Source of the DNA: a virus | Reading direction: 5' to 3' (one strand) | DNA: 29,795 nt | Virus record (IMG/VR): IMGVR_UViG_3300008110_000706 | Coordinates: 1-29,795 of that record | Shown: in pieces, positions 1,276-19,918 of the stretch | How positions within the stretch are numbered: the first letter of the stretch is position 1 | Layout: the number at the start of each line of letters is the position of its first letter | Notes under the pieces: generated by a model | Databases searched by the model: none | What the model was told of the DNA's origin: nothing | Seen by the model: the letters and a program-made list of their open reading frames with translations, nothing else | Translations under genes and position numbers: made by a program

Positions 1276-1985
1276 AAACTAACATTATCACATTTACAAA
1301 TGTTTTAGGCATAAATGATATTTATTCTCCAGAACCATCTAGTAGTTTAATTCCAGACTGGTATAAAGATATTAGCTCTTATAAAAATAATATTAAGGGG
1401 GTAGATGAAGATTCATTAACAACAGGAACAATAAAAAAATGTATGCCAGTTTTTGATTCGATCTCCATGGGGTATATTCTTAAATTGCCTGCAGATTTAT
1501 TTATAAGCAAGCAAATAGATAAAGACGGCACATCTAGAACCTTGTATCAGTGGCCATCTTTAGATCTTGTAAAATTTCATTCAGTTGATCAGGCATATAA
1601 TCACCCATTTAGGGATAATATAAAAGACTGGTATCCAAAAATTATGAATCCTTGGTCTATAAAAACAGAGGCTGGATATTCATGCCTGTTTATTTCTCCA
1701 ATGCATAGAAAATTAGACATATTGATATTTCCAGGAGTTGTCGATACAGATACTTATACGGCCCCAGTTAATTTTCCTTTTGTTTTAAACGATCCAAATT
1801 TCTCTGGATTAATTCCAGCTGGCACACCAATAGCTCAAGTTATTCCTTTTAAGCGTGAAACTCACATAATGAAAATAGGTTCCGATAAAGAAATATTAGA
1901 TCAAGAAAGAGTAACGTCTTTAAAAAATACTAGATTTTTTGACTCATATAAAACTTTTTTTAGATCAAAAAAAGAATATAAGTAA
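1272..1985 (+). CDS. DUF6065-like protein, copy 2
   Basis: A 237-residue paralogue of the preceding protein, overlapping it by ATGA. The family motifs are present but diverged: PDWYKDI, KKCMPVFDSISMGY, KTEAGYSCLFISP, GVVDTDTY and IPAGTPIAQVIPFKR. In the second motif Trp becomes Tyr and in the third the Pro is lost, while GVVDTD and the Q-V-I-P-F-K-R ending are kept, suggesting the latter form the functional or folding core. Two adjacent copies of equal length with low identity indicate an old tandem duplication. The C-terminus is Lys/Arg-rich. Function unknown. The extended -10 for the next gene begins right after its stop codon. Confidence 0.75.
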   Translation: MKTNIITFTNVLGINDIYSPEPSSSLIPDWYKDISSYKNNIKGVDEDSLTTGTIKKCMPVFDSISMGYILKLPADLFISKQIDKDGTSRTLYQWPSLDLVKFHSVDQAYNHPFRDNIKDWYPKIMNPWSIKTEAGYSCLFISPMHRKLDILIFPGVVDTDTYTAPVNFPFVLNDPNFSGLIPAGTPIAQVIPFKRETHIMKIGSDKEILDQERVTSLKNTRFFDSYKTFFRSKKEYK

Positions 1986-2017: not shown

Positions 2018-2410
2018 ATGGCACATTGGGCCGAAATAGATGACAATAATATTGTTGTAAGAGTTTTAGTTGGAGACAACAACGATCCAGCAGGTGACGA
2101 AGGATATCAATGGTTAGTTGATAATCTAGGCGGTACCTGGGTTAAGACTTCTTACAATGCAATTGGTGGAAAAAGAAGAAATCCAGAAACTGGAGAAATT
2201 ACAGATGAGCCAGGGTTTAGAAAAAACTTTGCAGGAATAGGATTTACTTGGGATGAACAAAAAAATGCATTTATTCCTCCAAAAACTTTAGAATCCTGGA
2301 TTCTTGATGAAGAAACATGTCTTTGGAAAGCCCCAATAGCGTATCCATCGTCTGGAACATATCTTTGGAATGAAAGCTTGCAAAATTGGGAAGAATTGAT
2401 TACTGAGTAG
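2018..2410 (+). CDS. Small W-rich virion-type protein (MAHWAEID family)
   Basis: A 130-residue protein beginning MAHWAEIDDNNIVVRVLVGDN, followed by DPAGDEGYQWLVDNLGG and then FAGIGFTWDEQKNAFIPP. This set of phrases is familiar from a small protein encoded near tail-fibre genes in cyanophages and pelagiphages; it is usually left unnamed and its role is not established. The C-terminal 50 residues contain repeated W-x-L-(D/N)-E type phrases (ESWILDEETCLWKAP, YLWNESLQNWEE), suggesting short beta repeats. It has a strong Shine-Dalgarno, its own extended -10 promoter and a terminator just after the stop, so it is likely a monocistronic unit. A structural or tail-accessory role is inferred from family context only. 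Confidence 0.75.
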   Translation: MAHWAEIDDNNIVVRVLVGDNNDPAGDEGYQWLVDNLGGTWVKTSYNAIGGKRRNPETGEITDEPGFRKNFAGIGFTWDEQKNAFIPPKTLESWILDEETCLWKAPIAYPSSGTYLWNESLQNWEELITE

Positions 2411-6692: not shown

Positions 6693-6708
6693 TAATTAAG
6701 GAGTAGAG

Positions 6709-7167
6709 ATGGCAACAGTTGACAAAGACTTTAAGGTAAAGAATGGCCTTGTTGTAACAAATGGCGGTACCTTTGGAGGAACTGTCGCTGTTGCCACCCC
6801 TACAGAAAATAATCACGCTGCTACAAAAGCATACGTTGATTCTGTAGTTGGTGGAGTTGAAGTTCCAGTTTCAGACACTCCACCAGCTAATCCTTCCAAT
6901 GGAAATTTGTGGTATGACACAGTAACTGAAAGACTTCATGTTTATTATGTTAGCCAGTGGTTTGCCATGGCTACTCTTGAAGATGCAGAAACTCTTCAGG
7001 ATCACATTCACGATACATCTATTGGCGGTACAGGAACAATTGTTACCACTTTTGTTAGCGGTGGATTTTATAATGATCCAGGCGAATTAGTAGATGCTGG
7101 ATATTACAATACAACAACCTGGGAAGAAACCTGGGTTGGTGGAATTGCAATAGATAATTTTAATTAA
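6709..7167 (+). CDS. Short tail fibre-like protein (152 aa)
   Basis: Starts at ATG 6709 after AAGGAG. The N-terminus MATVDKDFKVKNGLVV matches the start of the large fibre at 4286, so this is presumably the virion-binding segment shared by both. It is followed by ENNHAATKAYVDSVVGG, a coiled-coil/shaft phrase common in phage fibres, then SDTPPANPSNGNLWYDT, VTERLHVYYVSQWFAM (a small beta motif frequent in tail proteins) and a Gly/Thr/Trp-rich end. It may be a short side fibre, or the shrunken descendant of a longer one. An alternative is a collar or chaperone-type protein. The N-terminus is intact here, providing the reference that exposes the frameshift in its neighbour. Confidence 0.72.
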   Translation: MATVDKDFKVKNGLVVTNGGTFGGTVAVATPTENNHAATKAYVDSVVGGVEVPVSDTPPANPSNGNLWYDTVTERLHVYYVSQWFAMATLEDAETLQDHIHDTSIGGTGTIVTTFVSGGFYNDPGELVDAGYYNTTTWEETWVGGIAIDNFN

Positions 7168-7176
7168 TAGTATAAT
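7168..7176 (+). promoter_or_regulatory. -10 promoter (TAGTATAAT)
   Basis: A perfect TATAAT (7171-7176) just after the stop of the previous gene, lacking the TG of the other sites. Expected leader is ~16 nt with GAGGAGG (7188-7194) before ATG 7199. It opens the first complete fibre cassette. Confidence 0.5.
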
Positions 7177-7198
7177 TTAGGTTAGTTGAGGAGGAACG

Positions 7199-9019
7199 AT
7201 GGCAACAAGAATGCAGCAACGCAGAGGTACTGCTGCTCAATGGATTTCAACTAACAATGGTGATGGGCCAATCCTTGAGGTTGGCGAAATCGGTTTTGAA
7301 ACAGACACTGGCAAGTTTAAAATTGGTGACGGTGTAAATCCTTGGGTAGACCTAGATTATTTCTTAGATGAATCAGAAATAACAAGTATCACTGGAGATT
7401 ATGTTTTATCTTCAACATTGGCACAAAATAATGGCGTTGCCACATTAGATAATTCAGGTAAACTAACATCTTCTCAAATTCCTACAAGTTTAGCAAGCAC
7501 TACATATGTAGATAATGCTGTTTCTGGTCTTGTTGACTCTGCTCCAGGGCTATTGAACACATTAAACGAGCTTGCTGCAGCAGTTAATGACGATCCAACA
7601 TTTTTTACAACGGTATCAACTAATCTGTCTAACCATGAATCAGATACTACAAGCATTCATGGAATTGCAGACACTGCAGAACTTGCTACAAAAACATTTG
7701 CAGCAGAATTGTTAACAAATGCTACAAAGACAAATATTACAATTACTGGTGATAAGAATGGTCTTACAATTACCGCAGAAAACGGTGTAGGAGATTCTAC
7801 AACAGATAATTTAACAGAAGGCACAACAAATAAATATTTTACAAATCAAAGAGCTCTCGATGCAACAGCATCAGCATACGATGCATCTGGGGCAGCTTCA
7901 ACAGCACAAACAAATGCTCAAAATTATGCAGATACAGCAGTCTCTAATCACAGCTCAGATACTACAAATGTCCACGGTATAACAGATACATCAGCACTTG
8001 TAACAACATCTGGAGCGCAGACATTATCAGACAAGACTTTAACATCACCAATAATTAATGGTGCAACAATTGGTGGAAACCTTGTTCCATCTGCAAATGC
8101 AACATATGATTTAGGATCATCTACTAATAAATTTAAAGACCTATATCTATCAGGAACAACTCTTTATTTAGATGCAGCCACAATCGGTCTGCATTCTGGA
8201 AATATTCAATTTAGCCACAGTGGAAATACAACAATTGTTCCAATCGGTGGCGGAGAACACACGGTAGCTACTCAGTCATATGTAGATACAGCAGTATCAA
8301 ATCTAGTTGACACAGCCCCATCAACATTAAACACACTGAATGAGCTTGCTGCAGCAATAAATGATGATGCTTCATATGCATCTACAGTTACTACAGCACT
8401 TGGTTTAAAGGCACCACTAGAGTCGCCAACCTTTACTGGAACGGTAACGCTACCATCAGCAACATCTGGAGCAAACCTAGTAAATATTCCAAACTCTGCT
8501 TTAGATAATAGCTCTATAACAATCAATGGATCAGCAGTATCTCTTGGTGGTTCTACCACAATTGATGCCTTGCCATCTCAAACAAGCCAAAGTGGAAAGT
8601 ATTTAACCACTGATGGATCTATAGCTTCATGGGCAACTATTGATGCTTTGCCATCACAGACAAGCAACTCAGGAAAATATTTAACTACAAATGGAACATC
8701 TGCTTCATGGGCAACTATATCTTTCCCATATGTTCCAATTCCAGTAACATCAGTATCTTCTAATATTTCTCTAACTTCAAATAATAGATACTTTGTAGAT
8801 ACTTCTGCTGCTAGAACTTTAACCCTACCCGCTTCTCCAACGGCAGGGGATGAAATACAAATATTTGATACCACTGGATCTGCTGCTACAAATGTAATTA
8901 CAGTTGCTTCTAATAGCAATAAAATCAACGGTACAGTTCAAGATTTAGAAGTAGACATAGCCTATGATGTATTAGTTCTTGTATATACAGGGTCTGGATA
9001 TGGATGGGTAGTAATATGA
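7199..9019 (+). CDS. Mtd_N-type tail fibre, cassette A
   Basis: A 606-residue protein. Residues 1-55 (MATRMQQRRGTAAQWIS, then GEIGFETDTGKFKIGDG and WVDLDYFL) match the N-terminal domain of the major tropism determinant family (Mtd_N), which anchors fibres to the virion. The body is repetitive (TYVDNAVSGLVD; LNTLNELAAAVNDD; DLGSSTNKFKDLYLSGTTLYLDA; SQTSQSGKYLTTDGS), typical of a trimeric beta shaft. The last ~90 residues (NRYFVDTSAARTLTLPA, then INGTVQDLEVD, VLVYTGSGYGW) form a C-terminal module also present at the end of the 13424 fibre. No cysteines seen; Thr/Ser/Asn-rich. It has a strong Shine-Dalgarno. Likely a receptor-binding or side-fibre component; receptor unknown. Confidence 0.85.
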   Translation: MATRMQQRRGTAAQWISTNNGDGPILEVGEIGFETDTGKFKIGDGVNPWVDLDYFLDESEITSITGDYVLSSTLAQNNGVATLDNSGKLTSSQIPTSLASTTYVDNAVSGLVDSAPGLLNTLNELAAAVNDDPTFFTTVSTNLSNHESDTTSIHGIADTAELATKTFAAELLTNATKTNITITGDKNGLTITAENGVGDSTTDNLTEGTTNKYFTNQRALDATASAYDASGAASTAQTNAQNYADTAVSNHSSDTTNVHGITDTSALVTTSGAQTLSDKTLTSPIINGATIGGNLVPSANATYDLGSSTNKFKDLYLSGTTLYLDAATIGLHSGNIQFSHSGNTTIVPIGGGEHTVATQSYVDTAVSNLVDTAPSTLNTLNELAAAINDDASYASTVTTALGLKAPLESPTFTGTVTLPSATSGANLVNIPNSALDNSSITINGSAVSLGGSTTIDALPSQTSQSGKYLTTDGSIASWATIDALPSQTSNSGKYLTTNGTSASWATISFPYVPIPVTSVSSNISLTSNNRYFVDTSAARTLTLPASPTAGDEIQIFDTTGSAATNVITVASNSNKINGTVQDLEVDIAYDVLVLVYTGSGYGWVVI

Positions 9020-9034
9020 TATTTTTAAAAAATT

Positions 9035-9043
9035 TGGTACAAT
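9035..9043 (+). promoter_or_regulatory. Extended -10 promoter (TGGTACAAT)
   Basis: TG-G-TACAAT (five of six to TATAAT) in the 50-nt gap after the fibre gene. Expected leader ~20 nt to ATG 9070; the Shine-Dalgarno is poor (GGGACGGT at 9056-9063). Confidence 0.5.
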
Positions 9044-9069
9044 ATAAAAGAACAGGGACGGTACTATAA

Positions 9070-10851
9070 ATGGTTCTAAAAAGATCTACTCTATCTTCTT
9101 CATCTTCTTCAGGTGCAGCAAGTAGTGACTTTATTGTTAGCACAGGCACTTCTGGAAATACTACCGTTACATTATCAAAAGAATTCCCAGTTGGCTCATA
9201 CGTAGTTACATCTGCATTATCCGATACCGCATATGATATTTATTTAGTAGCTTCAGACGGCACATCTGCAGGATCTGTCAACTCAACAACTGCATCTACA
9301 ACAATTGATGCATCAAAAGCATTTAATACCGTAATTATTTACGGTGCACAAAATAATGATACTTTTACCTTTACATTTAAGTACGTATTTTCTCCTAGCG
9401 CAGACAACACATCTATTGTGGCTGCAGGTCCAAGAGTTACAAGCGTAGGAACCAATGTTCTTCCAAATGTTGATAGCTCAACAACAATTACAGGTAAAAA
9501 CTTTGCCTCTAATGCAACAGTAACATTCACTGGTACAGATAATGTTGTAAGAAATGCAAAATCTGTAACTAGAAATTCTTCTACATCTTTGACAGTAGTT
9601 AGACCAGATGATTTGCCTAATGCCTATCAACCATATACAATTACTGTTTTAAATCCAGGAATTTCTGCTCCAACATCTACAAACCTTCACAAGCTTGGAA
9701 GCCTATCCGCTGGATCTGTTCCAACATGGTCAACATCTGTTGGAGAGTTATCTACAATTATGACTAGGGGATCTGCGTATTCTCATTCATTAGCAGCATC
9801 AGATCCTGACACTAATGGATCGGTAACATACTCATTAGTATCTGGATCACTACCTTCTGGTTTATCGTTAAACTCATCAACAGGTGTAATATCAGGAACT
9901 TCTAGCGCTAACTTTGGAACATATAGTATTACTGTTCGTGCAACCGACGCTGGTGGAAACTATGTTGATAGAGCATTTACTCTTGCAAACTTGATAGTTT
10001 CTGATACAGATAATTTCAATCGCTCAACATCTGGAAATCTTGGAAGCACTAGCAATAATGCTTCTGTTTGGACAAACCAGCGTGGAACTTGGCAAGCAGA
10101 TGGCTCAAGAGCCTACAGCAATGATTCCGCTGGAACACATGCAGTAGCAACAATTGCAGGATCAACAACAAATGTTTCAAACCTTCAAGCAGATACTCAA
10201 AATGCAGGCGGTGTTGGAGTTGCATTTTGGGTATCTGATGCAAATAATTATTATGCTGCTACAACATATTATTCTACATCTTCAGGCTCTTCAACATCAT
10301 GTACTGGTGGAGGTAGTGGTTTAACAGAGGGTGGATATGCTAGTTCTTGTTGTGCTGGACAAAGTACTTCACAAAGATGGTTAGTGACTACATATTGTTG
10401 CGATGGAACACAGCTTGGACCATCTGCTAGAACAACCACTTCACCATCATCAGGAGCTATAAGCACTTGTAATAATAATTATGGAGGACATTGCGGTGAT
10501 AGTGCTGATGGCCCTTATACATATTATTCTTGCACAACTACCAACGTAACAACATCGTTTACTAATTATTTATCAAACTTTAGAATTATAAATAATGGAT
10601 CTGCTATTGTTAATACACAGTATAATTCAAACACTTCTGGATATCAGACTGCTGGATCAATAGCAGTATCTACATCTGGAAATACAATATCTTATTCTGT
10701 ATATTCTAGTGCTAACAAGAGTGGATTACTTCATTCAGGAAGCACAACTCCTTCAAACCCAGTAAAGGGGAGAAATATTGGAATCTATAAGGGCGATGGC
10801 GGAAGCAGTCAAGGCTCTTATGTTGACAACTTTGATGTAACTTTATCATAA
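9070..10851 (+). CDS. Multidomain fibre: IPT/TIG, Ig-like and lectin-like domain with Cys-rich insertion, cassette A
   Basis: A 593-residue protein. Residues ~1-115 are an N-terminal beta domain shared with the 15514 protein (KEFPVGSYVVTSALSDTAYDI). Residues ~118-205 are IPT/TIG-like (TITGKNFASNATVTFTGTDN). Residues ~215-312 are a putative Ig domain of He_PIG type (YSLVSGSLPSGLSLNSSTG, then VISGTSSANFGTY). Residues ~315-593 look like a concanavalin/laminin-G-type jelly roll (DTDNFNRSTSGNLG.. to YVDNFDVTLS) as in carbohydrate-binding modules. Within it, between YYAATTYYSTSS and YTYYSC, an insertion from C411 to C488 holds eight cysteines, the only cysteines noticed in the protein. The most plausible role is a host-surface adhesin. 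Ser, Thr and Asn are abundant, offering glycosylation sites for the glycosyltransferase encoded three genes later. Confidence 0.8.
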   Translation: MVLKRSTLSSSSSSGAASSDFIVSTGTSGNTTVTLSKEFPVGSYVVTSALSDTAYDIYLVASDGTSAGSVNSTTASTTIDASKAFNTVIIYGAQNNDTFTFTFKYVFSPSADNTSIVAAGPRVTSVGTNVLPNVDSSTTITGKNFASNATVTFTGTDNVVRNAKSVTRNSSTSLTVVRPDDLPNAYQPYTITVLNPGISAPTSTNLHKLGSLSAGSVPTWSTSVGELSTIMTRGSAYSHSLAASDPDTNGSVTYSLVSGSLPSGLSLNSSTGVISGTSSANFGTYSITVRATDAGGNYVDRAFTLANLIVSDTDNFNRSTSGNLGSTSNNASVWTNQRGTWQADGSRAYSNDSAGTHAVATIAGSTTNVSNLQADTQNAGGVGVAFWVSDANNYYAATTYYSTSSGSSTSCTGGGSGLTEGGYASSCCAGQSTSQRWLVTTYCCDGTQLGPSARTTTSPSSGAISTCNNNYGGHCGDSADGPYTYYSCTTTNVTTSFTNYLSNFRIINNGSAIVNTQYNSNTSGYQTAGSIAVSTSGNTISYSVYSSANKSGLLHSGSTTPSNPVKGRNIGIYKGDGGSSQGSYVDNFDVTLS

Positions 10852-10867
10852 TATTGAGGGGTATAAA

Positions 10868-11113
10868 ATGGGAGACATATATTCAAGACCAGCAAGACCT
10901 TGGGATTTGTTTAATAAAAATATAGAAAAAGTTGGAGAGCAAATAGCAGGGGAAAGACTTGATATTTGTAAAACCTGTCCAGAACTAATAAAAGCAACAA
11001 ATCAGTGCAAACAATGCGGGTGCATAATGACGCTAAAAACAAAATTACCAAACGCTTCTTGTCCGCTTGGTAAATGGGGTATAATTAGAGTAGGATTCCA
11101 AGAGGAGGAATAA
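10868..11113 (+). CDS. Small zinc-ribbon-like protein, cassette A
   Basis: An 81-residue protein. After RPARPWDLFN it contains CKTC (C34, C37), CKQCGC (C47, C50, C52) and a final C65 in KTKLPNASCPLGKWG. The pattern CxxC-x9-CxxCxC-x12-C with KTKLPNASCPxGKW is a recognisable small family of tailed phages and probably binds one zinc ion; it may fall under DUF6171, which I cannot verify. The paralogue at 17844 has the same layout. Role unknown: a metal-stabilised virion part or a regulator are both possible. GAGGGG sits 6 nt before the ATG, and the stop overlaps the next start (TAATG). It follows the cysteine-rich fibre in both cassettes. Confidence 0.75.
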   Translation: MGDIYSRPARPWDLFNKNIEKVGEQIAGERLDICKTCPELIKATNQCKQCGCIMTLKTKLPNASCPLGKWGIIRVGFQEEE

Positions 11114-11340
11114 TGACAGAAAATCAGCTACCACCAATGAAGATAGCCTTTGTTATTGATAACAAAGTTGTTGATATCTTGCACACAGATGAAAGGCTTG
11201 CAGCTATTATGCTAAGCAATCCAATCATTCTAGATGTAACTGGAGAAAATGGTCAACACCTAGCTCAGGTTAATTATACATATAACCCAGCGGATGGCTC
11301 GTTTACATCTACAACAATTGTCGCTGACGATAGCGAATAA
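11113..11340 (+). CDS. Small 'VID'-family protein, cassette A
   Basis: A 75-residue protein with a GAGGAGG Shine-Dalgarno and a TAATG overlap with the zinc-ribbon gene. The core KIAFVIDNKVVDILHTDERLA and SNPIILDVTGEN closely match the 18074 protein (GFVIDDEIVDVLYTDERMS, SNPIIIDLSN) and more weakly the 322 protein. The C-terminal third (VNYTYNPADGSFTS) is like the WTYNADQNAVIG of its relative. The predicted shape is a beta hairpin plus helix then beta strands; there are no cysteines. Function unknown; its position between the zinc-ribbon and glycosyltransferase genes is conserved in the second cassette. Confidence 0.72.
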   Translation: MTENQLPPMKIAFVIDNKVVDILHTDERLAAIMLSNPIILDVTGENGQHLAQVNYTYNPADGSFTSTTIVADDSE

Positions 11341-11348
11341 TTTTCTTT

Positions 11349-12032
11349 ATGCCAGTCTTGCATAATGAAAAAATTATTATAGGGTCTTGTGATAATGGAT
11401 TTGTAGACGGTTCATTTTTTTCCAGTATCACAAATATATTAACAGTTAAAGATTACCCATATATACTTAATGGCAATATAAGATCAGACGGACCACTTAT
11501 TCATAAAAATAGAGAAGCCGTTATAAGATATTGGCTATCAAGCACCGATGTAGATTGGCTATTATTTATAGATTCTGATATTGTTTTTACACCAGATGAT
11601 GTAAATTTTTTATGTCAGTCCGCAGATTCAAAAAACAAAAAGATAGTTTCTGGACTATATTTTACTATTCAAAAAATAGAGCCATGTTTCCCTTACCCTG
11701 TTGTTTTTATAAGAACTGAAAAAGGCGAATATCTTGCATTGTCTGAGATTGAAGAAAACTCGGTATCCATGATAGATGCTGCAGGATTAGGATTTGTTTT
11801 AATCCATAGATCAGTTGTTGAAAAAATGTTAAAAAGGTACAGCCTATCTGAGATTTTTGTGTCCACTATTTTTGGAGAAGATATATCCTTTTTTGACAAG
11901 GTGCATGAAATAGGCGAAGATGTATATCTAGATACTCGTGCATCTGTAAAACATATGAAGAGATACCCAATAGACTTAGATTTTCATAAAATGTATGAGT
12001 CTTATAATCTAGAAAAAATGAAAGATAATTAA
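11349..12032 (+). CDS. GT-A-fold glycosyltransferase, cassette A
   Basis: A 227-residue protein. The DxD motif is at D75-S76-D77 in WLLFIDSDIVFTPDDV, preceded by a helix with NREAVIRYWL. GLGFVLIHRSVVEKM follows, then G-E-D at 176-178 in FGEDISFFDKVHEIG, and a late His (H202, SVKHMK). DxD for metal and sugar nucleotide, ED as probable catalytic acid-base, and the terminal His are the usual layout of GT2-type inverting enzymes. It would transfer a sugar from a nucleotide donor; acceptor unknown, perhaps Ser/Thr/Asn of the adjacent fibres, phage virion proteins or host glycans. No membrane segment. No clear Shine-Dalgarno before ATG 11349, so reinitiation after the gene ending at 11340 is likely. 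Confidence 0.75.
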   Translation: MPVLHNEKIIIGSCDNGFVDGSFFSSITNILTVKDYPYILNGNIRSDGPLIHKNREAVIRYWLSSTDVDWLLFIDSDIVFTPDDVNFLCQSADSKNKKIVSGLYFTIQKIEPCFPYPVVFIRTEKGEYLALSEIEENSVSMIDAAGLGFVLIHRSVVEKMLKRYSLSEIFVSTIFGEDISFFDKVHEIGEDVYLDTRASVKHMKRYPIDLDFHKMYESYNLEKMKDN

Positions 12033-12042
12033 TAAGAAAAAT

Positions 12043-12060
12043 CTGATATAATACTATCAG
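12043..12060 (+). promoter_or_regulatory. Extended -10 promoter inside an inverted repeat
   Basis: TGATATAAT (12044-12052) lies inside CTGATA (12043-12048), a 6-nt spacer and TATCAG (12055-12060), a perfect 6-bp inverted repeat. The leader to GTG 12080 is about 20 nt with AGGAGG at 12068-12073. The repeat could be a protein-binding site or chance in AT-rich DNA. Confidence 0.6.
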
Positions 12061-12079
12061 TATCATTAGGAGGTCCCCA

Positions 12080-13408
12080 GTGGCAACAAGAATGCAACAG
12101 CGCAGAGGAACTGCAGCTCAGTGGATTTCAACCCACGACGGAGACGGTCCAATCCTCAACCCAGGTGAGTTGGGATTTGAAACCGATACAGGTAAATTTA
12201 AAATTGGTGATGGGGTAAATCACTGGGTAGACTTAGACTACTTCCTTGATGAATCTGAGATTAATAGTATTACAGGTGATTATGTTCTCACCTCTACCCT
12301 TGGACAAAACGGTGGCGTAGCTACCCTCGATGGTTCAGGAAAGCTAACATCTTCACAGATTCCTAATATCGATGAGATCTCTCAGGAAGCAGTAAATAAC
12401 GCATTAGTTGCGGGTATAGGTTTAGATAAAACTTATAACGATAATGCCAATACAATTACTCTTGACATTGATTCAACAGTAGTAACACTAGATGGATCAC
12501 AAACTTTAACAAATAAAACTATTACATCTCCTTCAGGATTAATAAAGGGTGATGTTGGTTTAGGAAATGTTGATAATACATCAGACGCAGATAAGCCAGT
12601 ATCAACTGCTACTCAGTCAGCACTTGATCTTAAGGCACCACTAGCCTCTCCAACGTTCACAGGAACGGTCTCTGGCGTTACAGCCTCAATGGTTGGCCTT
12701 GGCAACGTAGATAATACTTCAGATGCTAATAAGCCAGTGTCAACAGCAACACAAACAGCTCTTGATCTAAAAGCAAATCTTGCAGCACCAACTTTTACAG
12801 GAACAACTACGACTGATGATCTTGTTGTAGATGGAGACTTTACTACTGTAAATGGAACTAACTTTGCAGCAAGTGCAACAAGCATTGTTATTGAAGATAA
12901 TCTTGTTCAGATTGCTCATCAGAATCCTGCTAATACCGTTGACCTTGGACTTGTTGTTGGATACAACGACGGTACAGCAAAACATGCAGGTATTGTAAGA
13001 GATACATCGGCAAACAAGTGGAAAATTTTTAAGGGTGTAACAACAGAACCTGCTACAACAGTAGATTTTACAGAAGGCTCATTAGATGATCTAGAAGTTG
13101 CTGGTTTTACAGCATCTTCAATTACAGTAGGAGATGTTTCAAATACTGAGTTTGGTTATTTAAATGGAGTAACATCTGCTATTCAAACACAGATCGATGC
13201 AAAAGCACCACTTGCTTCCCCAACATTTACTGGCACTGTTATATTGCCAAATTCAACAGTTACAAATGATATGCTTGCAGGATCAATTGCTAACGATAAA
13301 CTTTCAAATTCATCAGTAACCATAAATGGTTCATCCGTATCTCTGGGCGGTAGTGTTACTATCCAAGCAGGACCAGATGAAATAATGGTTATTATGGGTG
13401 CGTTGTAG
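12080..13408 (+). CDS. Mtd_N-type tail fibre, shortened copy, cassette B
   Basis: A 442-residue protein that starts at GTG 12080 after AGGAGG. It opens with the Mtd_N-type domain (MATRMQQRRGTAAQWIS, ETDTGKFKIGDGVNHWVDL). The body has two GLGNVDNTSDA(D/N)KPVSTATQ repeats, a fibre phrase widespread in phages, each followed by LASPTFTGT or LAAPTFTGT. Around residues 265-330 is a module (NLVQIAHQNPANTVDLGLVVGYN, KHAGIVRDTSANKWKIFKG) also known from other fibre and adhesin proteins. Unlike its relatives at 7199 and 13424 it lacks the ~90-residue C-terminal module ending YGW, stopping abruptly as IQAGPDEIMVIMGAL. It may be a truncated or degenerating copy, or may work with the neighbouring fibre as a hetero-assembly. 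Confidence 0.82.
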   Translation: MATRMQQRRGTAAQWISTHDGDGPILNPGELGFETDTGKFKIGDGVNHWVDLDYFLDESEINSITGDYVLTSTLGQNGGVATLDGSGKLTSSQIPNIDEISQEAVNNALVAGIGLDKTYNDNANTITLDIDSTVVTLDGSQTLTNKTITSPSGLIKGDVGLGNVDNTSDADKPVSTATQSALDLKAPLASPTFTGTVSGVTASMVGLGNVDNTSDANKPVSTATQTALDLKANLAAPTFTGTTTTDDLVVDGDFTTVNGTNFAASATSIVIEDNLVQIAHQNPANTVDLGLVVGYNDGTAKHAGIVRDTSANKWKIFKGVTTEPATTVDFTEGSLDDLEVAGFTASSITVGDVSNTEFGYLNGVTSAIQTQIDAKAPLASPTFTGTVILPNSTVTNDMLAGSIANDKLSNSSVTINGSSVSLGGSVTIQAGPDEIMVIMGAL

Positions 13409-13423
13409 GATTAGGAGATAATA

Positions 13424-15514
13424 ATGGCTAAAAGAATGCAGCAGCGTAGAGGTACAGCAGCTCAATGGATTTCTCTTAATGATGGTGATGGCCCAATTCT
13501 TAATGTTGGTGAAATTGGCTTTGAAACAGATACAGGCAAGTTCAAGATTGGTGATGGACAAAATCCTTGGGTTGATCTAGATTACTTCCTTGACGAGTCA
13601 GAGATTCAAAACATTACAGGCGATTATGTTCTTACATCTACCCTTGGACAATTAAACGGAGTTGCTACGCTTGACGGATCTGGAAAACTTACATCTTCAC
13701 AAATTCCAAATATTGATGAGTTGTCACAAGAAGCTGTAAATAGCGCACTTGTGGCGGGTACAGGTTTAGACAAGACATACAATGATAATGCTAATACCAT
13801 AACAATTGATATTGATTCTACTGTTACAACAAACGATGGTTCACAAACACTTACTAATAAAACTATTAGTGGAACCAGCAACTCACTAAGCAATATTCCA
13901 AACAATGCTTTGGATTATGATTCTATTACTATTAATGGAGAAGTTGTAGCCCTTGGTGGTTCTACAACAATTGATGCACTTCCTTCTCAAACAGGACAAA
14001 ATGGAAAATATTTAACTACTGATGGAGCAGATGCTTCTTGGTCAACAATTGACCTTAGCTCAAAGCAAGATGTAGTTGCTGGAGTTTCAGATTCAGAAAT
14101 TGGATATCTTTCAAATGTAACATCAGATATTCAGTCACAGATTGATTCAAAGGCACCAATCGCCTCCCCAACGTTCACAGGAACAGTCTCTGGCGTTACA
14201 GCCTCAATGGTTGGCCTTGGCAACGTAGATAATACCTCAGATGCAAACAAGCCAGTATCAACTGCTACACAGTCAGCATTAGATGCAAGGTTAGCACTTT
14301 CTGGTGGAACCATGACAGGAGACATTACTCTTGCTGGTGCACCCACACAAGCTCTACATGCTGCAACCAAGGCATATGTCGATGGTATTGCAGAAGGCTT
14401 ACACATTCATGCATCATGCGTTGCTGCCACAACTGGAAACGTTGCAATTGCAACAGAGCTAGAACCTGGAGATCTTGTTGATGGAGTAACTCTTGCAGAA
14501 GGAGATCGTGTTCTTGTAAAGAGCCAAACAAACGCAGCGCAGAATGGTATTTACGTTGTTCAGGCTTCAGGAGCAGCACTTCGTGCAGCAGACTTTAATG
14601 AGCCAATAGAAGTAGACGGTGGAGACTTTGTATTCGTAACAGGTGGAACTACACACGACAACACTGGTTGGGTTCAGACCACAACTAACATAGTGACAAT
14701 TGGAACAGACCCAATTCAATTCACTCAGTTCTCAGGTGCTGGCACATACTTGGCGGGTACAGGATTACAGCTTGATGATAATGAATTTAGTATTGACACA
14801 ACTACAACTGTAGATATTTCAACTGCTCAAACACTTACAAATAAAACATTAACATCTCCAAATATTAATGGAGCAACTATTGGAGGAGATTTAATTCCTT
14901 CAGCAGACTCAACATATGATCTTGGATCATCTACTAATAAATTTAAAGATCTTTATTTATCTGGAACTACACTATATCTTGATGCAGCAACAATAGAGCT
15001 ACACTCTGGAAATATTGCTTTAGGTCATAGCGGAAATACTACAACTGTTCCAATTGGCGGTGGCAATCACACAGTCGCAACACTTGCTGGAGAACAGACA
15101 CTAACCAATAAAACAATAGATGCAGCAAGTAATACTATTTCTAATATTCCAAACGCTGCTTTAGATAACTCAGATGTTACTATTAATGGAGAGTCTGTTT
15201 CTCTTGGTGGAACAATAACAATTCCAACAGGAGCTACAGCACAGGCAGTATCATCAAATATATCATTACAACATAATTATAATTATTTTGTAGACACATC
15301 GGCTGCTAGAACACTGACCCTATCAGCAACCCCTTCTTTAGGAGATACTATTGCTATTATAGATGCCGCTGGATCAGCAGCCACGAATAATATTACAGTA
15401 TCTTCAAATGGTGGTAAAATAAACGGTACAGTACAAGATCTAGAAATAGACGTAAATAATGCTGCTGCAGTATTAGTCTATACAGGATCTAATTACGGAT
15501 GGAGAGTAGGATAA
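13424..15514 (+). CDS. Mtd_N-type tail fibre, long copy, cassette B
   Basis: A 696-residue protein with TTAGGAGA before ATG 13424. It has the Mtd_N-type N-terminus (MAKRMQQRRGTAAQW), then repeats including GLGNVDNTSDANKP. A module at nt ~14340-14740 (AATKAYVDGIAEGLHIH, GDRVLVKSQTNAAQNGIYVVQ, GWVQT, FTQFSGAG) is closely related to one in the fibre at 4286. Then come DLGSSTNKFKDLYLSGTTLYL and the C-terminal YFVDTSAARTLTL / INGTVQDLEIDV / VYTGSNYGWRVG module shared with 7199. So it is a mosaic of parts seen in two other fibres of this window. A 50-nt block is identical to part of the 12080 gene. The stop overlaps the next ATG (TAATG). Confidence 0.85.
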   Translation: MAKRMQQRRGTAAQWISLNDGDGPILNVGEIGFETDTGKFKIGDGQNPWVDLDYFLDESEIQNITGDYVLTSTLGQLNGVATLDGSGKLTSSQIPNIDELSQEAVNSALVAGTGLDKTYNDNANTITIDIDSTVTTNDGSQTLTNKTISGTSNSLSNIPNNALDYDSITINGEVVALGGSTTIDALPSQTGQNGKYLTTDGADASWSTIDLSSKQDVVAGVSDSEIGYLSNVTSDIQSQIDSKAPIASPTFTGTVSGVTASMVGLGNVDNTSDANKPVSTATQSALDARLALSGGTMTGDITLAGAPTQALHAATKAYVDGIAEGLHIHASCVAATTGNVAIATELEPGDLVDGVTLAEGDRVLVKSQTNAAQNGIYVVQASGAALRAADFNEPIEVDGGDFVFVTGGTTHDNTGWVQTTTNIVTIGTDPIQFTQFSGAGTYLAGTGLQLDDNEFSIDTTTTVDISTAQTLTNKTLTSPNINGATIGGDLIPSADSTYDLGSSTNKFKDLYLSGTTLYLDAATIELHSGNIALGHSGNTTTVPIGGGNHTVATLAGEQTLTNKTIDAASNTISNIPNAALDNSDVTINGESVSLGGTITIPTGATAQAVSSNISLQHNYNYFVDTSAARTLTLSATPSLGDTIAIIDAAGSAATNNITVSSNGGKINGTVQDLEIDVNNAAAVLVYTGSNYGWRVG
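14186..14235 (+). repeat. 50-bp perfect direct repeat (second copy; first at 12668-12717)
   Basis: Bases 12668-12717 and 14186-14235 are identical, within a ~70-bp stretch that differs at only one or two more positions. They encode SGVTASMVGLGNVDNT in both fibres, in frame. The surrounding paralogous sequence differs at many synonymous sites, so this block looks like a recent exchange or conversion tract. Confidence 0.8.
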
Positions 15515-17829
15515 TGACACTAAGTTTTAGCACATTAACTGGTGGTGGCGGAGCACAGGCTGATAATAATTTTACTATTATGACAGAGGGCAACGGCTAC
15601 ACCCTGGTAGACCTCACATCCACATACCCAGCTGGAAAATATACAGTTGCTTCAAGACTTTCAGACATTGTTTATGATATTTATTTAATTGCAGAAGATG
15701 GCTCAAATGCAGGGTATCTAGCAGCAAGTTCATATATCCAATTAAACATTACAGCAACAAAGGCATTCAATAAGGTTGTTGTATATGGTGCAACAAACAA
15801 CGATGTTATTAATTTTACATACTCAAATATTTATTCTGCAACAGGTCCATCAACTGGAGAATTTACTGGCGCAGCACCAAGATTAATTTCAATTTCAACA
15901 TCAGATCTTCCAAATCAAAACAATACAACCACAATAACTGGTCAAAACTTTGCTACTGATGTAGCCGTTACATTTACGGGTACAGATAACGTTGCAAGAA
16001 ATGCTAAATCAATTTCTAGAACAAACTCAACATCTATTGTTGTAACACGTCCAGATGATATGCCAACAACATATTCTCCATATACCCTTACAGCTACAAA
16101 TCCTGGAATTGTTGCTCCTGCATCAACAAATACTCATAAGCTTACAAATGCAATTACCGCTGGAAATGCTCCAGTTTGGGTAACTTCAGCAACTTTACCA
16201 GCATATAGAAAAGATGCAGCATACTCTCAAACAATTCAGGCAACAGATGCAGATGGCGGATCATCTATAATTTATTCTATAGTTTCTGGATCATTGCCAA
16301 CTGGAATTACTTTTAATACATCAACAGCAACATTTAGCGGAACACCTACAACTAATGCTGCAAGTCCATATACTTATACAATTCGTGCAACTGATGCTGG
16401 TGCCAACTATGTTGATAGAGCGTTTACAGTACAACAGTTAGCACCAGATGCAGTTACTATTGGTACAGCAACCGATGTTGGAACTAGCAGAGCATTTAAT
16501 GATGGAGCATCTGTAGTTACCTTTACCCCAGCAGCAACTGGCCCTGCAGCAACTTCATATACCGTTACATCCTCTCCAGGAGGGTATACTGCTACTGGCG
16601 CTTCTAGCCCAATTACTGTAACTGGATTACAGTCAAATACATCTTATACATTTACTGTTGTATCAAATAATGCATCTGGACCAAGCTTAACTTCATCTGC
16701 CACAGCGTCTATGACTGCAACTACTGTTCCACAAGCACCGACAATTGGAACAGCCACAGGATCTGGAACAACAGCATCAGTGCCATTTACAGCAAATGCA
16801 ACTGGTGGTAAAGCAATTACTAACTTTGATGTTACATCAAGTCCACTCGGATATAATTACACTGGTGCATCATCTCCAATTTCTGCTACTTCTTTAGCAT
16901 ATGGAAATACCTATACTTTCCAAGCTAGAGCATATAACGCAAATGGATGGTCTCAATATTCATCTTCTTCTAATGGAGTTGCTGTTGCTTATCCTTCATC
17001 AGATTCAGATAACTTTAATAGAACAACATCTGTTGCTCTTGGAAATACAACTGGTACTGGACAATCATGGACAAACCTTTCAGGAACATGGTTTGCAAAT
17101 GGGTCACAGGCACAAGCTAACGGTGATGCAAGAGCAATTATAAGAATGGTCGGAGCACACGGAACAGTACAAGCTGGAACAGTTTCTCCAGGTGTTGGAT
17201 TAGTTTATTGGGCTACCGATTCTAATAATTTAGTCGCTTCTTATCCATATTATACAACTTCAACTTCAAATCAGTGTACTGGTTTTGCACACTGTGCTGG
17301 AACTTCGTGTACCCCAGCAAACTGTTGTGGTGCAGTTGTTGGACCAAACTGTGAAAGAGCATGTGAATGTTCAAATGGATGTTGGGCATATGGATACTCT
17401 TCAACTTCAACCTGTCCAGCTTGCTCTACAACATGTTCAGAACAATGTGGTGCTTCATCATTAGGAACAAGAGGAACATATACATACATGTATTGTTCTG
17501 CATTTCAGTCAGTTACAACAAATAGAACTTATGTAAGAACCGTAAAAACTGTTAATGGAAGCACATCTGTAGTTGACGACTATGAATTAAACAATTCAAG
17601 TGGTGCACCAAATGCTATTAATTCAATGAGAGCGGTAGCATCTTCTAATGGACAGGTTAGTTTGTATACTTGGACTTCTGCAAATTATGGTGGAACACAA
17701 ATGACAACAAGAACCATTTCTCCAGGACCCAATGGTTACGGAACAGGGGTTGGCCTAATCAGAGCTGCCTACGGCAACTACTACTCTCAAGGCGCAACCG
17801 CTGATGATTTTTCATCTAGTGGATTTTAG
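15514..17829 (+). CDS. Multidomain fibre: IPT/TIG, Ig-like, two FN3 and lectin-like domain with Cys-rich insertion, cassette B
   Basis: A 771-residue paralogue of the 9070 protein. The ATG at 15514 overlaps the previous stop; the GGAGAGTAGGAT upstream serves as ribosome site. Residues ~1-210 match the N-terminal and IPT/TIG domains (TITGQNFATDVAVTFTGTDN), ~220-308 the He_PIG-type domain (YSIVSGSLPTGITFNTSTA). Residues ~310-493 are an insertion absent from the 9070 protein: two fibronectin type III-like domains (SYTVTSSPGGYTATGASSP, SYTFTVVSNNASGPS; NFDVTSSPLGYNYTGASSP, TYTFQARAYNANGWSQ). From ~495 (SDSDNFNRTTSVALGN) follows the lectin-like domain with an insertion from C588 to C661 containing 14 cysteines. 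These are the only cysteines noticed. Probable receptor-binding adhesin; the FN3 pair would lengthen the arm. Confidence 0.8.
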   Translation: MTLSFSTLTGGGGAQADNNFTIMTEGNGYTLVDLTSTYPAGKYTVASRLSDIVYDIYLIAEDGSNAGYLAASSYIQLNITATKAFNKVVVYGATNNDVINFTYSNIYSATGPSTGEFTGAAPRLISISTSDLPNQNNTTTITGQNFATDVAVTFTGTDNVARNAKSISRTNSTSIVVTRPDDMPTTYSPYTLTATNPGIVAPASTNTHKLTNAITAGNAPVWVTSATLPAYRKDAAYSQTIQATDADGGSSIIYSIVSGSLPTGITFNTSTATFSGTPTTNAASPYTYTIRATDAGANYVDRAFTVQQLAPDAVTIGTATDVGTSRAFNDGASVVTFTPAATGPAATSYTVTSSPGGYTATGASSPITVTGLQSNTSYTFTVVSNNASGPSLTSSATASMTATTVPQAPTIGTATGSGTTASVPFTANATGGKAITNFDVTSSPLGYNYTGASSPISATSLAYGNTYTFQARAYNANGWSQYSSSSNGVAVAYPSSDSDNFNRTTSVALGNTTGTGQSWTNLSGTWFANGSQAQANGDARAIIRMVGAHGTVQAGTVSPGVGLVYWATDSNNLVASYPYYTTSTSNQCTGFAHCAGTSCTPANCCGAVVGPNCERACECSNGCWAYGYSSTSTCPACSTTCSEQCGASSLGTRGTYTYMYCSAFQSVTTNRTYVRTVKTVNGSTSVVDDYELNNSSGAPNAINSMRAVASSNGQVSLYTWTSANYGGTQMTTRTISPGPNGYGTGVGLIRAAYGNYYSQGATADDFSSSGF

Positions 17830-17837
17830 TGTATAAT
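17829..17837 (+). promoter_or_regulatory. -10 promoter (GTGTATAAT), leaderless type
   Basis: A perfect TATAAT at 17832-17837, with TG immediately before it rather than one base further. It ends 7 nt before ATG 17844, with no Shine-Dalgarno in AGTTGT. Its cassette A equivalent (10868) instead uses a Shine-Dalgarno. Confidence 0.55.
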
Positions 17838-17843
17838 AGTTGT

Positions 17844-18071
17844 ATGGAAAATAACAGACCAGCAAGACCTTGGGATTTGTTCAATGCTGAAATAGGAAAA
17901 GTAAGTATTGAAGTTAAACAAAAAAGATTAGATATTTGTAAGTCATGTCCAGAATTTGTTAATTTAACATCTCAATGTAAAAAATGTGGGTGTATAATGA
18001 ATCTTAAGACAAAACTTCCAAATGCATCATGCCCTATTGGTAAATGGGGAACAGAAGAGAAAGTAGGATAA
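17844..18071 (+). CDS. Small zinc-ribbon-like protein, cassette B
   Basis: A 75-residue paralogue of the 10868 protein: RPARPWDLFN, CKSC (C32, C35), CKKCGC (C45, C48, C50) and C63 in KTKLPNASCPIGKWG. All six cysteines are conserved with identical spacing, supporting a metal-binding site. ATG 17844 is chosen over GTG 17829 because alignment to the relative starts here and the upstream codons are the promoter itself. Identity to the cassette A copy is much higher than that of the flanking fibres, so this protein is under stronger constraint. Role unknown. Confidence 0.75.
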   Translation: MENNRPARPWDLFNAEIGKVSIEVKQKRLDICKSCPEFVNLTSQCKKCGCIMNLKTKLPNASCPIGKWGTEEKVG

Positions 18072-18073
18072 AA

Positions 18074-18367
18074 ATGACACAGGAAATAGGCGAAGACACT
18101 TCAGCCCCATCAGTTGCACAAACACCTCCAAAATCAATTGGATTTGTTATCGATGATGAAATTGTGGATGTTCTTTATACAGATGAAAGAATGTCAGCAA
18201 TACTATTAAGCAATCCAATTATTATAGATTTATCAAATGTTATAACAAATGCGCCAGATACATCTACATACAGACCAACTATTGGTTGGACATACAATGC
18301 AGATCAAAATGCAGTTATAGGCATGGATGGCGAAAACAATCCAATTGTTTTAAATCTATCAAACTAA
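18074..18367 (+). CDS. Small 'VID'-family protein, cassette B
   Basis: A 97-residue protein starting at ATG 18074, two bases after the previous stop. It is close to the 11113 protein in the core (GFVIDDEIVDVLYTDERMS, LLSNPIIIDLSN) but has a longer, acidic and proline-containing N-terminal extension (TQEIGEDTSAPSVAQTPPKS) and a slightly longer middle. A longer reading in the same frame exists from 18044, but that overlaps the zinc-ribbon gene and lacks relatives. Function unknown. Confidence 0.7.
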   Translation: MTQEIGEDTSAPSVAQTPPKSIGFVIDDEIVDVLYTDERMSAILLSNPIIIDLSNVITNAPDTSTYRPTIGWTYNADQNAVIGMDGENNPIVLNLSN

Positions 18368-18380
18368 AGAGAGGTAAAAA

Positions 18381-19082
18381 ATGGGGGAAAAAACAAAAAT
18401 TGATTATGTATTTCTTTTTCCAGGAAAAAATTTTTCTATAAATTTTATCAACTCCTGGACAAATACAATGATATATTTATATGAAAACGGATATACCTTT
18501 GCTAGTGCTTTTAAGTATGCGCCAATAGTTCATGAAGTTAGAAACCAATTAGTAGCATCTAAAATACATTTTGAGGCAAAACAAACATCTAAAATATTTA
18601 ATGATAGGACTAATAGCCAGATACCATTCTCTGGAGGTATTGAGGCAAAAAAGGTTATATTTATAGATAGCGATATTGTTTGGAACATAGAAGATCTAGA
18701 AAAAATATTACACACTGATAAAGACATTATGTGTGGTGCATATTTTCTTGAAAGTGGTCAAGATATGTGTATTGTAGATAAAGATGGATTATTTATGGAT
18801 ATGAGCAAAATAAAAGATAGGTCAGATATATTTGAAATCCTATCTGGAGGAATGGGGTTTGTATCTGTAAATTATGAAGTATTAGAAAAAATAGGATTTC
18901 CTTGGTTTAATACATTGTATCTTAAAGATGAAGAAAATGGGGTTCAGTTTGTTGGGGAAGACACTTTTTTCTTTTATAGAGCACAAGAAGAAGGGTTTAA
19001 AGTTTTTTGCGATCCAAGTATTAGGATTGGACACGAAAAATCAAGAACACTTATGTTGTTAGACTATGATCAGGCACATTAA
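18381..19082 (+). CDS. GT-A-fold glycosyltransferase, cassette B
   Basis: A 233-residue protein with GAGAGG before the ATG. DxD is at D96-S97-D98 in KKVIFIDSDIVWNIEDLEKIL. GGMGFVSVNYEVLEK parallels GLGFVLIHRSVVEK of the 11349 enzyme. G-E-D at 192-194 (VGEDTFFFYRAQEEGFKVFCD) and H218 (IRIGHEKS) complete the layout. An early helix with HEVRNQLVASKI corresponds to the NREAVIRYWL helix. Same family as the cassette A enzyme but clearly diverged, so donor or acceptor may differ. The stop overlaps the start of the DUF6065-like gene (TAATG), suggesting joint expression. No membrane segment; it would act in the cytoplasm. Confidence 0.78.
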   Translation: MGEKTKIDYVFLFPGKNFSINFINSWTNTMIYLYENGYTFASAFKYAPIVHEVRNQLVASKIHFEAKQTSKIFNDRTNSQIPFSGGIEAKKVIFIDSDIVWNIEDLEKILHTDKDIMCGAYFLESGQDMCIVDKDGLFMDMSKIKDRSDIFEILSGGMGFVSVNYEVLEKIGFPWFNTLYLKDEENGVQFVGEDTFFFYRAQEEGFKVFCDPSIRIGHEKSRTLMLLDYDQAH

Positions 19083-19768
19083 TGTTTAAAAAAGAACAAA
19101 GAGTAATTCGCTACGACTCTAGAGAAAAAAATCTACCACATTTTGATAAAGCTATTAATCATATTCCAAAATGGTGGAAAGATGGAAATGCCTATATTCC
19201 AGATCACGGTCCTTTTGAAAATAGGGCTATGAAGCTATGTGTTCCATTTTTAGAGGCAATTACATTTGGATATGTAATACCAACACCATGTGATATTATG
19301 GTTCAGGTAGTAGATAACAAAATTAAACTTTTATGGCCAGATATGCCTTTTAAAATAGACAAGAGAGATTCGTCTTGGAATCCTACTTTACCCGTACCGT
19401 CTGGACATTATCCAGATCAATATACTTGGGGGGCAAACACAGTAATAGAGTTACCTAAAGGTTATAGTGCGCTATATACACATCCGTTAAATCGGCATGA
19501 CCTCCCTTTTACAACGCTGTCAGGGGTTGTTGACCTAGATATTACCCTTTCTTCTGGACAGTTACCGTTTTATTTAAAAAAGGGATTTGAAGGTTTGATT
19601 CCACAAGGAACTCCATTTGTTCAAATTCTACCTTTTAAAAGAGAAAATTGGATTTCAGAAACAGATAATACGCTGTATGATAAATCTATAGAGGCCAACA
19701 ATAACTCTTTGTCTGTTTTAAGTGGATGGTATAAAAAAAATAGATGGCATAGAAAAACTTTTGAATAA
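19082..19768 (+). CDS. DUF6065-like protein, copy 3
   Basis: A 228-residue member of the same family as the proteins at 562 and 1272. Motifs: PKWWKDGN, KLCVPFLEAITFGYVIP, ELPKGYSALYTHP, GVVDLD, and LIPQGTPFVQILPFKRENW. It is nearer to copy 1 than to copy 2. The TAATG overlap with the glycosyltransferase gene makes this the one place where the DUF6065-type protein is directly coupled to a predicted sugar-transfer enzyme. No catalytic residues can be named; conserved Trp, His-Pro and Asp residues would suit a small-molecule or sugar-binding protein, which is speculation. Confidence 0.75.
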   Translation: MFKKEQRVIRYDSREKNLPHFDKAINHIPKWWKDGNAYIPDHGPFENRAMKLCVPFLEAITFGYVIPTPCDIMVQVVDNKIKLLWPDMPFKIDKRDSSWNPTLPVPSGHYPDQYTWGANTVIELPKGYSALYTHPLNRHDLPFTTLSGVVDLDITLSSGQLPFYLKKGFEGLIPQGTPFVQILPFKRENWISETDNTLYDKSIEANNNSLSVLSGWYKKNRWHRKTFE

Positions 19769-19794
19769 GTTTTTTATTTACATAGTCTATAATC

Positions 19795-19820
19795 CTTAAG
19801 TTTATCTTGAGCTTTTTCTT
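19795..19820 (+). terminator. Intrinsic terminator after cassette B
   Basis: CTTAAG (19795-19800), loop TTTAT, CTTGAG (19806-19811; one G-U pair), followed by CTTTTTCTTT. The stem is short and AT-rich, so strength is uncertain, but the position after the last cassette gene and before a new promoter fits. Confidence 0.5.
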
Positions 19821-19847
19821 TATAAAAGTTCTAACCTTTAAAATTTA

Positions 19848-19856
19848 TGCTATACT
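19848..19856 (+). promoter_or_regulatory. Extended -10 promoter (TGCTATACT) of the reductase gene
   Basis: TG-C-TATACT, five of six to consensus plus TG. The expected start near 19863 gives a leader of about 55 nt to ATG 19919. Confidence 0.6.
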
Positions 19857-19864
19857 TGGGAGTA

Positions 19865-19881
19865 CTTTGCAAATCGCAAAG
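19865..19881 (+). promoter_or_regulatory. 5' leader hairpin of the reductase mRNA
   Basis: A perfect 6-bp stem, CTTTGC (19865-19870) with GCAAAG (19876-19881), loop AAATC. It can extend by GAG/CTC across a 2-nt bulge. It sits at the predicted 5' end, where it may stabilise the mRNA. The leader is far too short for a cobalamin riboswitch. GAAAGGTAG (19904-19912) is the ribosome site. Confidence 0.5.
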
Positions 19882-19918
19882 CTCTCATAATATTTTTACT
19901 TTGAAAGGTAGTTATTAA

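Follow-up and report, generated by a model that had tools for sequence, protein, structure and literature searches.

The window analyzed here is a 29.8-kb fragment (29,795 nt in full) of a tailed-phage genome, deposited as virus record IMGVR_UViG_3300008110_000706, and our subject is the run of putative receptor-binding genes that it carries between a small tail-fiber-type protein (s6709) and a B12-dependent ribonucleotide reductase (RNR), with the portal and capsid genes lying to the right of the RNR (Table 1). An earlier note, made from the sequence alone, had described this run as a duplicated cassette in which two successive blocks, A and B, repeat the same five gene types: Mtd_N fiber, Ig- and lectin-like fiber with a Cys-rich insert, zinc-ribbon protein, small VID protein, and glycosyltransferase (GT). 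Every open reading frame (ORF) it claimed for the two blocks is present at the position given, as are the additional features of block B (a second Mtd_N fiber, two FN3 domains, and a DUF6065-like gene). Fiber A consists of an N-terminal region, an Ig-like He_PIG domain, and a C-terminus predicted to form a beta-sandwich resembling carbohydrate-binding modules (CBMs); the C-terminus of fiber B is homologous to that of fiber A and is likewise predicted to be CBM-like.

Table 1. Features of the variable slot, its flanks, and the second variable site in the window.
Feature	Position	Strand	Basis or remark
s6709, conserved small tail-fiber-type protein, left anchor	6709..7167	+	Directly before the Mtd_N fiber in many relatives
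Mtd_N fiber A, 606 aa	7199..9019	+	PF18454 E 2e-11; same place in locus-spanning relatives (synteny)
Receptor-binding fiber A, 593 aa	9070..10851	+	PF05345 (He_PIG) E 1e-17; C-terminal structure model
Hypervariable Cys-rich hairpin insert of fiber A, 8 Cys	10294..10548	+	Model; alignment identity
Zinc-ribbon protein A (DUF6171)	10868..11113	+	PF19668 E 2e-7; phrog_13558; invariant Cys in alignment
VID protein A, candidate fiber companion	11113..11340	+	VID alignment; upstream-gene count
Glycosyltransferase A (FIDSD motif)	11349..12032	+	phrog_34859 E 1e-39
Mtd_N fiber B1, 442 aa	12080..13408	+	PF18454 E 1e-11
Mtd_N fiber B2, 696 aa	13424..15514	+	PF18454 E 5e-11
Receptor-binding fiber B, 776 aa, He_PIG and two FN3	15499..17829	+	PF05345, PF00041
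Cys-rich insert of fiber B, ~81 aa, 14 Cys	17266..17508 (ends approximate)	+	C-terminal domain alignment
Zinc-ribbon protein B (DUF6171)	17829..18071	+	PF19668 E 6e-7
VID protein B	18044..18367	+	VID alignment
Glycosyltransferase B, other subfamily than A	18381..19082	+	phrog_1574 E 7e-36
DUF6065-like protein, predicted dUTPase-like fold	19082..19768	+	phrog_7084; model; profile match
Right junction, 150-nt gap before RNR	19769..19918	.	Size like empty slots (134-167 nt)
B12-dependent ribonucleotide reductase (RNR), right anchor	19919..21949	+	PF17975, PF21995; synteny
Gly-rich fiber end (second variable site)	3-356	+	
DUF6065-like genes (second variable site)	562-1275, 1272-1985	+	phrog_7084
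s2018 companion gene	2018-2410	+	phrog_7759

A search with the portal protein returned 80 close relatives (portal 79-100% identical); the contigs of 14 of these were extended, and all were annotated with iterated profiles. The phage is aquatic. Its host is probably actinobacterial, since the best matches of the major capsid protein are those of Streptomyces phages of 120-134 kb (~44%) and the portal shares 89% identity with that of a contig binned in an Actinomycetota metagenome-assembled genome. Both an s6709-adjacent Mtd_N fiber and the RNR were found on 28 contigs, including the window, and in 23 of them the slot between the two is empty, with a gap of 134-167 nt (a few of these contigs are near-identical, so that independent cases are fewer). 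DNA homology between the window and its relatives resumes at 19822-19877, and the inserted genes therefore sit to the left of a conserved RNR leader. From 19822 onwards, one relative (L063) matches the window at 97.8% identity, yet immediately left of this position it has the final part of a Gly-rich fiber, not the cassettes. Another (L002) matches positions 6015-11361 at 99.4% identity, which confirms block A in a second assembly. Other occupied slots hold different genes: a CBM-like fiber and VID only, directly before the RNR (L244); an FN3-type fiber, a fiber with the lecN N-terminus, and s2018 (L064); an FN3-type fiber, 2OG-Fe(II) oxygenases, two DUF6065 genes, and a short-chain dehydrogenase/reductase (SDR) gene (G004, G009, and G010); or large fibers, a sulfotransferase, two GTs, and a DUF6065 gene (G016). 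As in the metaviromic islands of marine phages, the syntenic flanks are conserved, the content between them is non-homologous in close relatives, and fiber or lectin-like and glycan-related genes are enriched. Because close relatives leave the slot empty or fill it differently, these gene comparisons point towards an exchangeable host-recognition island assembled from a shared gene pool, which we consider a likely description of the region, and not towards a duplicated five-gene machine.

The competing explanation, that a five-gene cassette was duplicated in tandem as a functional unit and then diverged in place, draws on the gene order that the two blocks share in the window and on the homology of every gene pair, which goes beyond chance (BLASTP E 1e-85 to 8e-9). 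It also draws on the Mtd_N heads, which are 85-92% identical at the amino-acid level and are the sole genes nearest to each other, and to the head of L064. However, divergence is uneven among the gene pairs, with A-B identities falling from 88% (86-89%) for the heads to 69% for the zinc-ribbon proteins, 50% for both the fiber N-terminus (lecN) and VID, and 33% for the GTs, and the remaining block A genes are nearer to homologs in other phages than to their partners in block B. This holds for the fiber A N-terminus (64% to L014 and 68% to L244, vs. 50% to B), VID A (59% to L057 vs. 50%), GT A (40% to G016 vs. 33%), and zinc-ribbon A (74% to L009 vs. 69%). Block B behaves similarly, its fiber, VID, and GT being nearest to L014 (56%), L057 (61%), and G016 (38%), respectively; zinc-ribbon B is marginally nearest to its counterpart in A (69% vs. 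66% elsewhere), and a tree of this family, built on only 63 columns, did not resolve the branching. Neither order nor membership is kept in relatives: the gene order that the earlier note saw conserved after divergence holds inside the window but not in other phages, where the order of the small genes flips; most close relatives lack the whole set, and the five gene types do not travel as one unit, since a fiber can have VID as its only partner (L244) or s2018 in its place (L064), and zinc-ribbon genes are also found where there are no fibers. Per-gene nearest neighbors, located mostly in other phages, thus led us to set aside the duplication of a block, which is distinctly unlikely, although a local duplication may have been followed by gene replacement.

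One new component of this likely host-recognition island is the C-terminus of the receptor-binding fibers. A model of this domain in fiber A (residues 314-593; alignment of 17 sequences) includes a confident sandwich core (pLDDT about 90) with a concanavalin-type beta-sandwich arrangement. Its best Foldseek match was CBM66 (E 0.09), and VIA-align returned Z scores of 14.9 for CBM66 (2.5 Å over 146 residues), 13.3 for the baseplate protein of phage Douge (8zdo_a), and 13.0 for the receptor-binding domain of TM4 gp23 (9n6a). The fiber C-terminus is accordingly predicted to be a CBM-like sandwich resembling known actinophage receptor-binding domains, among which the recombinant Douge BppU-CBM binds mycobacterial cell-wall glycans (PMC13033339). 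Within this domain, the Cys-rich insert (8-21 Cys) is the least conserved portion, with core and insert identities of 72 and 46% (fiber A vs. L244), 99 and 75% (L004 vs. L006), and 98 and 74% (L015 vs. L017). For the pair L004-L006, synonymous and nonsynonymous divergence (dS and dN) are 0.028 and 0.004 in the core, and 0.234 and 0.202 in the insert. Since both rates are raised in the insert, it seems to vary by segment exchange through recombination and not by point mutation; positive selection alone is not favored, as dS climbs with dN. Diversity-generating retroelements (DGRs) were also considered as a source of this variation and rejected, because no reverse transcriptase (PF00078) was detected in 18 related contigs, which are possibly incomplete, and because substitutions in the insert have no adenine bias (C-T, A-C, A-T, and C-G changes are all common).

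Cys-rich inserts were noted also in L003, L004, L006, L007-L020, and L244. In some phages the insert contains "SPSYPC"-like repeats, and a "CYYSAFFxTCFSS" segment is common to L003 and L057, though the remainder of the domain differs. A limited literature search found no phage fiber with a hypervariable Cys-rich tip. The hairpin is likely the specificity tip of the fiber. A more elaborate and tentative proposal, possible but somewhat doubtful in our view, is that the fiber tip is an antibody-like "stalk and knob", in which a long two-strand ribbon would project from a conserved sandwich and carry a hypervariable disulfide-rich knob. This knob would set specificity and diversify through the swapping of short Cys-containing stretches among phages, with no retroelement involved, and the VID or zinc-ribbon protein would help it fold.

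The small genes that trail these fibers were assessed using homologs made non-redundant at 90%, by recording the nearest upstream gene while skipping other small companions. A fiber-like gene lies upstream of s2018 in 14 of 17 cases (Fisher P 4e-11), of VID in 17/28 (P 8e-10), and of the zinc-ribbon gene in 12/43 (P 0.002), compared to 68 of 645 other short genes, these P values being indicative only because the phages are related. VID and s2018 therefore look like fiber companions, whereas the zinc-ribbon protein is, on these counts, a frequent but looser neighbor of fibers. An "IGxxYDxxxxxF" motif is common to VID and s2018 (HHalign P 3e-4 over 17 columns), and VID adjoins 17 of 42 non-redundant zinc-ribbon genes, preceding the zinc-ribbon gene in 12 cases and following it in 5. 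The VID and zinc-ribbon profiles matched no solved structure convincingly, a search of isolated phages with VID B returned no relatives, and no mention of DUF6065 or DUF6171 was found in the literature searched. Antisense DUF6171 genes lying outside the tail-fiber sites were seen in contigs G002, G003, G007, G009, G011, G017, G018, G019, L003, L005, L006, and L014, in several of which this copy lies near s3123-type genes.

For DUF6065, a dUTPase-like barrel was suspected before any search from the motifs GYS, GVVDTD, and GTPxxQ. An AlphaFold model built from 35 sequences (pLDDT 84) retrieved dUTPase or dCTP-deaminase chains in all 50 of the Foldseek matches listed (best E 3e-4), with VIA Z scores of 8.5-9.7 against dUTPases. 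HHalign aligned the family to 79 phage dUTPases with a score of 30.9 (P 7.5e-4), these motifs matching up in order; 15 unrelated families reached at most 16.6 and 60 column shuffles at most 18.0, and the match was weak when the main subfamily alone was used (score 21.8). Two subfamilies are apparent, the motif-III Asp being kept in the main one (GVVDTD and variants) and mostly lost in the second, and the Tyr of dUTPase motif III (G-x-I-D-x-x-Y) is not kept in DUF6065. No DUF6065 gene matched PF00692, for which the single match in 14 contigs is a separate gene, and no protein of the window matched a Pfam dUTPase. DUF6065 is thus predicted to have a dUTPase-like fold, but we do not file it as a dUTPase because of the lost motif-III Tyr and a second subfamily mostly without the Asp. 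Its several diverged copies per genome (up to three per contig) lead us to argue for a new role.

The enzymes of the slot allow further readings. GT A and GT B belong to different PHROG families (phrog_34859 and phrog_1574); searches with both in viral contigs returned no relatives, an outcome that we ascribe to searching with short patterns, given that each has a PHROG profile match. In work cited by PMC12619734, glycosylation is reported for the capsid and tail-tube proteins of mycobacteriophages. The GTs might instead alter host surface glycans to block superinfection, fibers and enzymes then being co-located by selection on the host receptor. The same association, with the same proposal, has been reported for pelagimyophages (PMC7029224), but no genes of a membrane or lipid-linked sugar pathway were detected beside the GTs, which lie behind the fiber and companion genes within short runs of overlapping genes, and we regard this explanation as rather improbable. 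That the GTs, DUF6065 proteins, and oxygenases form a DNA or nucleotide hypermodification module beside the RNR, near the fibers by chance, would fit the adjacency of the RNR, the predicted dUTPase-like fold, and the weak match of one relative's oxygenase to Tet_JBP. We consider it very unlikely, as most relatives that have the same RNR lack these enzymes in the slot, and as the enzymes vary together with the fibers, recur at a second fiber site away from the RNR, and include several divergent DUF6065 paralogs per genome, ill-suited to a housekeeping dUTPase. A further unlikely reading treats the small genes and the enzymes as passengers that accumulated with no functional link to fibers: the zinc-ribbon gene does occur in many contexts, yet a position behind a fiber is far commoner for s2018 and VID than for other short genes. 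In contigs G004, G009, and G010, the FN3-type fiber is followed by several distinct 2OG-Fe(II) oxygenase genes in a row, together with the SDR gene.

Several points weigh against our own interpretation of an exchangeable island of fibers with dedicated companions and variable tips. The contigs are fragments that are not mutually independent, some of them being nearly identical; genes were called as greedy ORFs, and "fiber-like" was assigned by a composition rule. The zinc-ribbon gene occurs in antisense outside tail-fiber sites in eight relatives, and among unrelated neighbors in Stenotrophomonas phage Moby. Finally, the Cys-rich insert itself is modeled at low confidence (residues 96-180, pLDDT <50, between strands 80-99 and 177-195).

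A second variable site, which ends within the first 2410 nt of the window, lies upstream (left) of an antisense lysin gene, and relatives carry fiber, s2018, VID, zinc-ribbon, and DUF6065 genes there; in G019 (L150/L142) it holds four tandem pairs of an FN3/Gly-rich fiber and s2018. The earlier note had taken bases 1-1985 for the end of a third block. The Gly-rich fiber end and the two DUF6065-like genes on which this was based are indeed there, but the stretch ends a different variable site and the VID gene placed in it is unsupported, with no ATG, GTG, or TTG start just ahead of the putative frame (~350-549) and no VID profile match even at E ≤ 10. Between s2018 and the lysin gene, at 2432-2456, lies a strong bidirectional terminator-like hairpin (11 and 9 pairs, T-runs on both strands). 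Promoter-like sites in the window occur at chance level. To the right of the RNR, most relatives (including G007, G011, G013, G002, G003, and G017) carry a gene of 1154-1218 aa before the portal, which was not found in the window, L064, L070, L140, or L244.

From the observed slot, with its empty and alternative fillings, and the observed association of companions with fibers, we propose a mechanism in which s6709 and the first Mtd_N fiber on the left and the RNR on the right form a conserved frame, between which slot contents would be recombined in different sets. Fibers would dock through their common Mtd_N head or through similar N-termini; at the distal end, their CBM-like sandwiches would bind cell-surface glycans, with the hypervariable Cys-rich hairpin as the likely tip of specificity. 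The s2018 and VID proteins, and perhaps the zinc-ribbon protein, may act as fiber-specific assembly or capping factors, and the GTs (in relatives 2OG oxygenases, sulfotransferase, SDR, and DUF6065) may modify the fibers or, with lower probability, the surface of the host. With two adjacent sets of this kind, the phage would have several receptor-binding options. Of the earlier suggestion that the cassettes give one virion several receptor specificities, what stands is a putative host-recognition module with several receptor-binding fibers (predicted CBM-like tips, and one Mtd_N head shared by three fibers), not a conserved five-gene unit.

The statement that no described system has this composition was too strong, since the host recognition clusters of pelagimyophages and cyanomyophages combine tail fibers, Mtd and concanavalin-type domains in structural proteins, and GTs (PMC7029224). 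Like the region described here, these clusters are hypervariable islands between conserved structural genes with tail fibers and several GTs. They differ in being carried by T4-like phages of SAR11 and cyanobacteria, whereas the capsid of the window is nearest to Streptomyces phages; in the window, the slot lies between an Mtd_N fiber and the RNR, is often empty in relatives, and holds DUF6171, VID, and DUF6065 genes together with Cys-rich CBM-like fibers. In metaviromic islands of marine phages, too, nearly identical backbones flank variable regions rich in fiber, lectin-like, carbohydrate-binding, and Fe(II) oxygenase genes (PMC3909814), but these islands were defined by read under-recruitment and not, as here, by contig comparison, and Nanopelagicales phages have a tail-fiber island with GTs (PMC10202952). 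The predicted fold of the fiber C-terminus is shared with Douge BppU-CBM, TM4 gp23, and CBM66 (Z 13.0-14.9) at only 10-15% identity, to which the window fibers add the large Cys-rich hypervariable hairpin. For the branched complexes of Ackermannviridae (CBA120, S117; PMC8825819, PMC11414711), too, neighboring genes encode several receptor-binding proteins that have N-terminal parts in common and can recombine, whereas the window showed no sign of branching domains or of a physical complex, and no depolymerase domain was seen. With Mtd of phage BPP-1 and its DGR, the window has in common only the virion-side Mtd_N head domain; here no reverse transcriptase was found (18 contigs), changes have no adenine specificity, and it is a Cys-rich insert that varies.

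Taken together, this kind of island has already been described, and what is new lies in its components, namely the predicted CBM-like tip with a Cys-rich hairpin, the predicted DUF6065 fold, and the association of s2018 and VID with fibers. The gene set can now be assigned to a specific, exchangeable slot in the genomes of a widespread group of uncultured phages, and leads are provided for four widespread uncharacterized families: DUF6065, with a predicted dUTPase-like fold; s2018 (phrog_7759) and VID, as candidate fiber companions; and the DUF6171 zinc-ribbon protein, often beside VID. A Cys-rich hairpin on a predicted receptor-binding sandwich further suggests that phages can vary their receptor tips without a diversity-generating retroelement.

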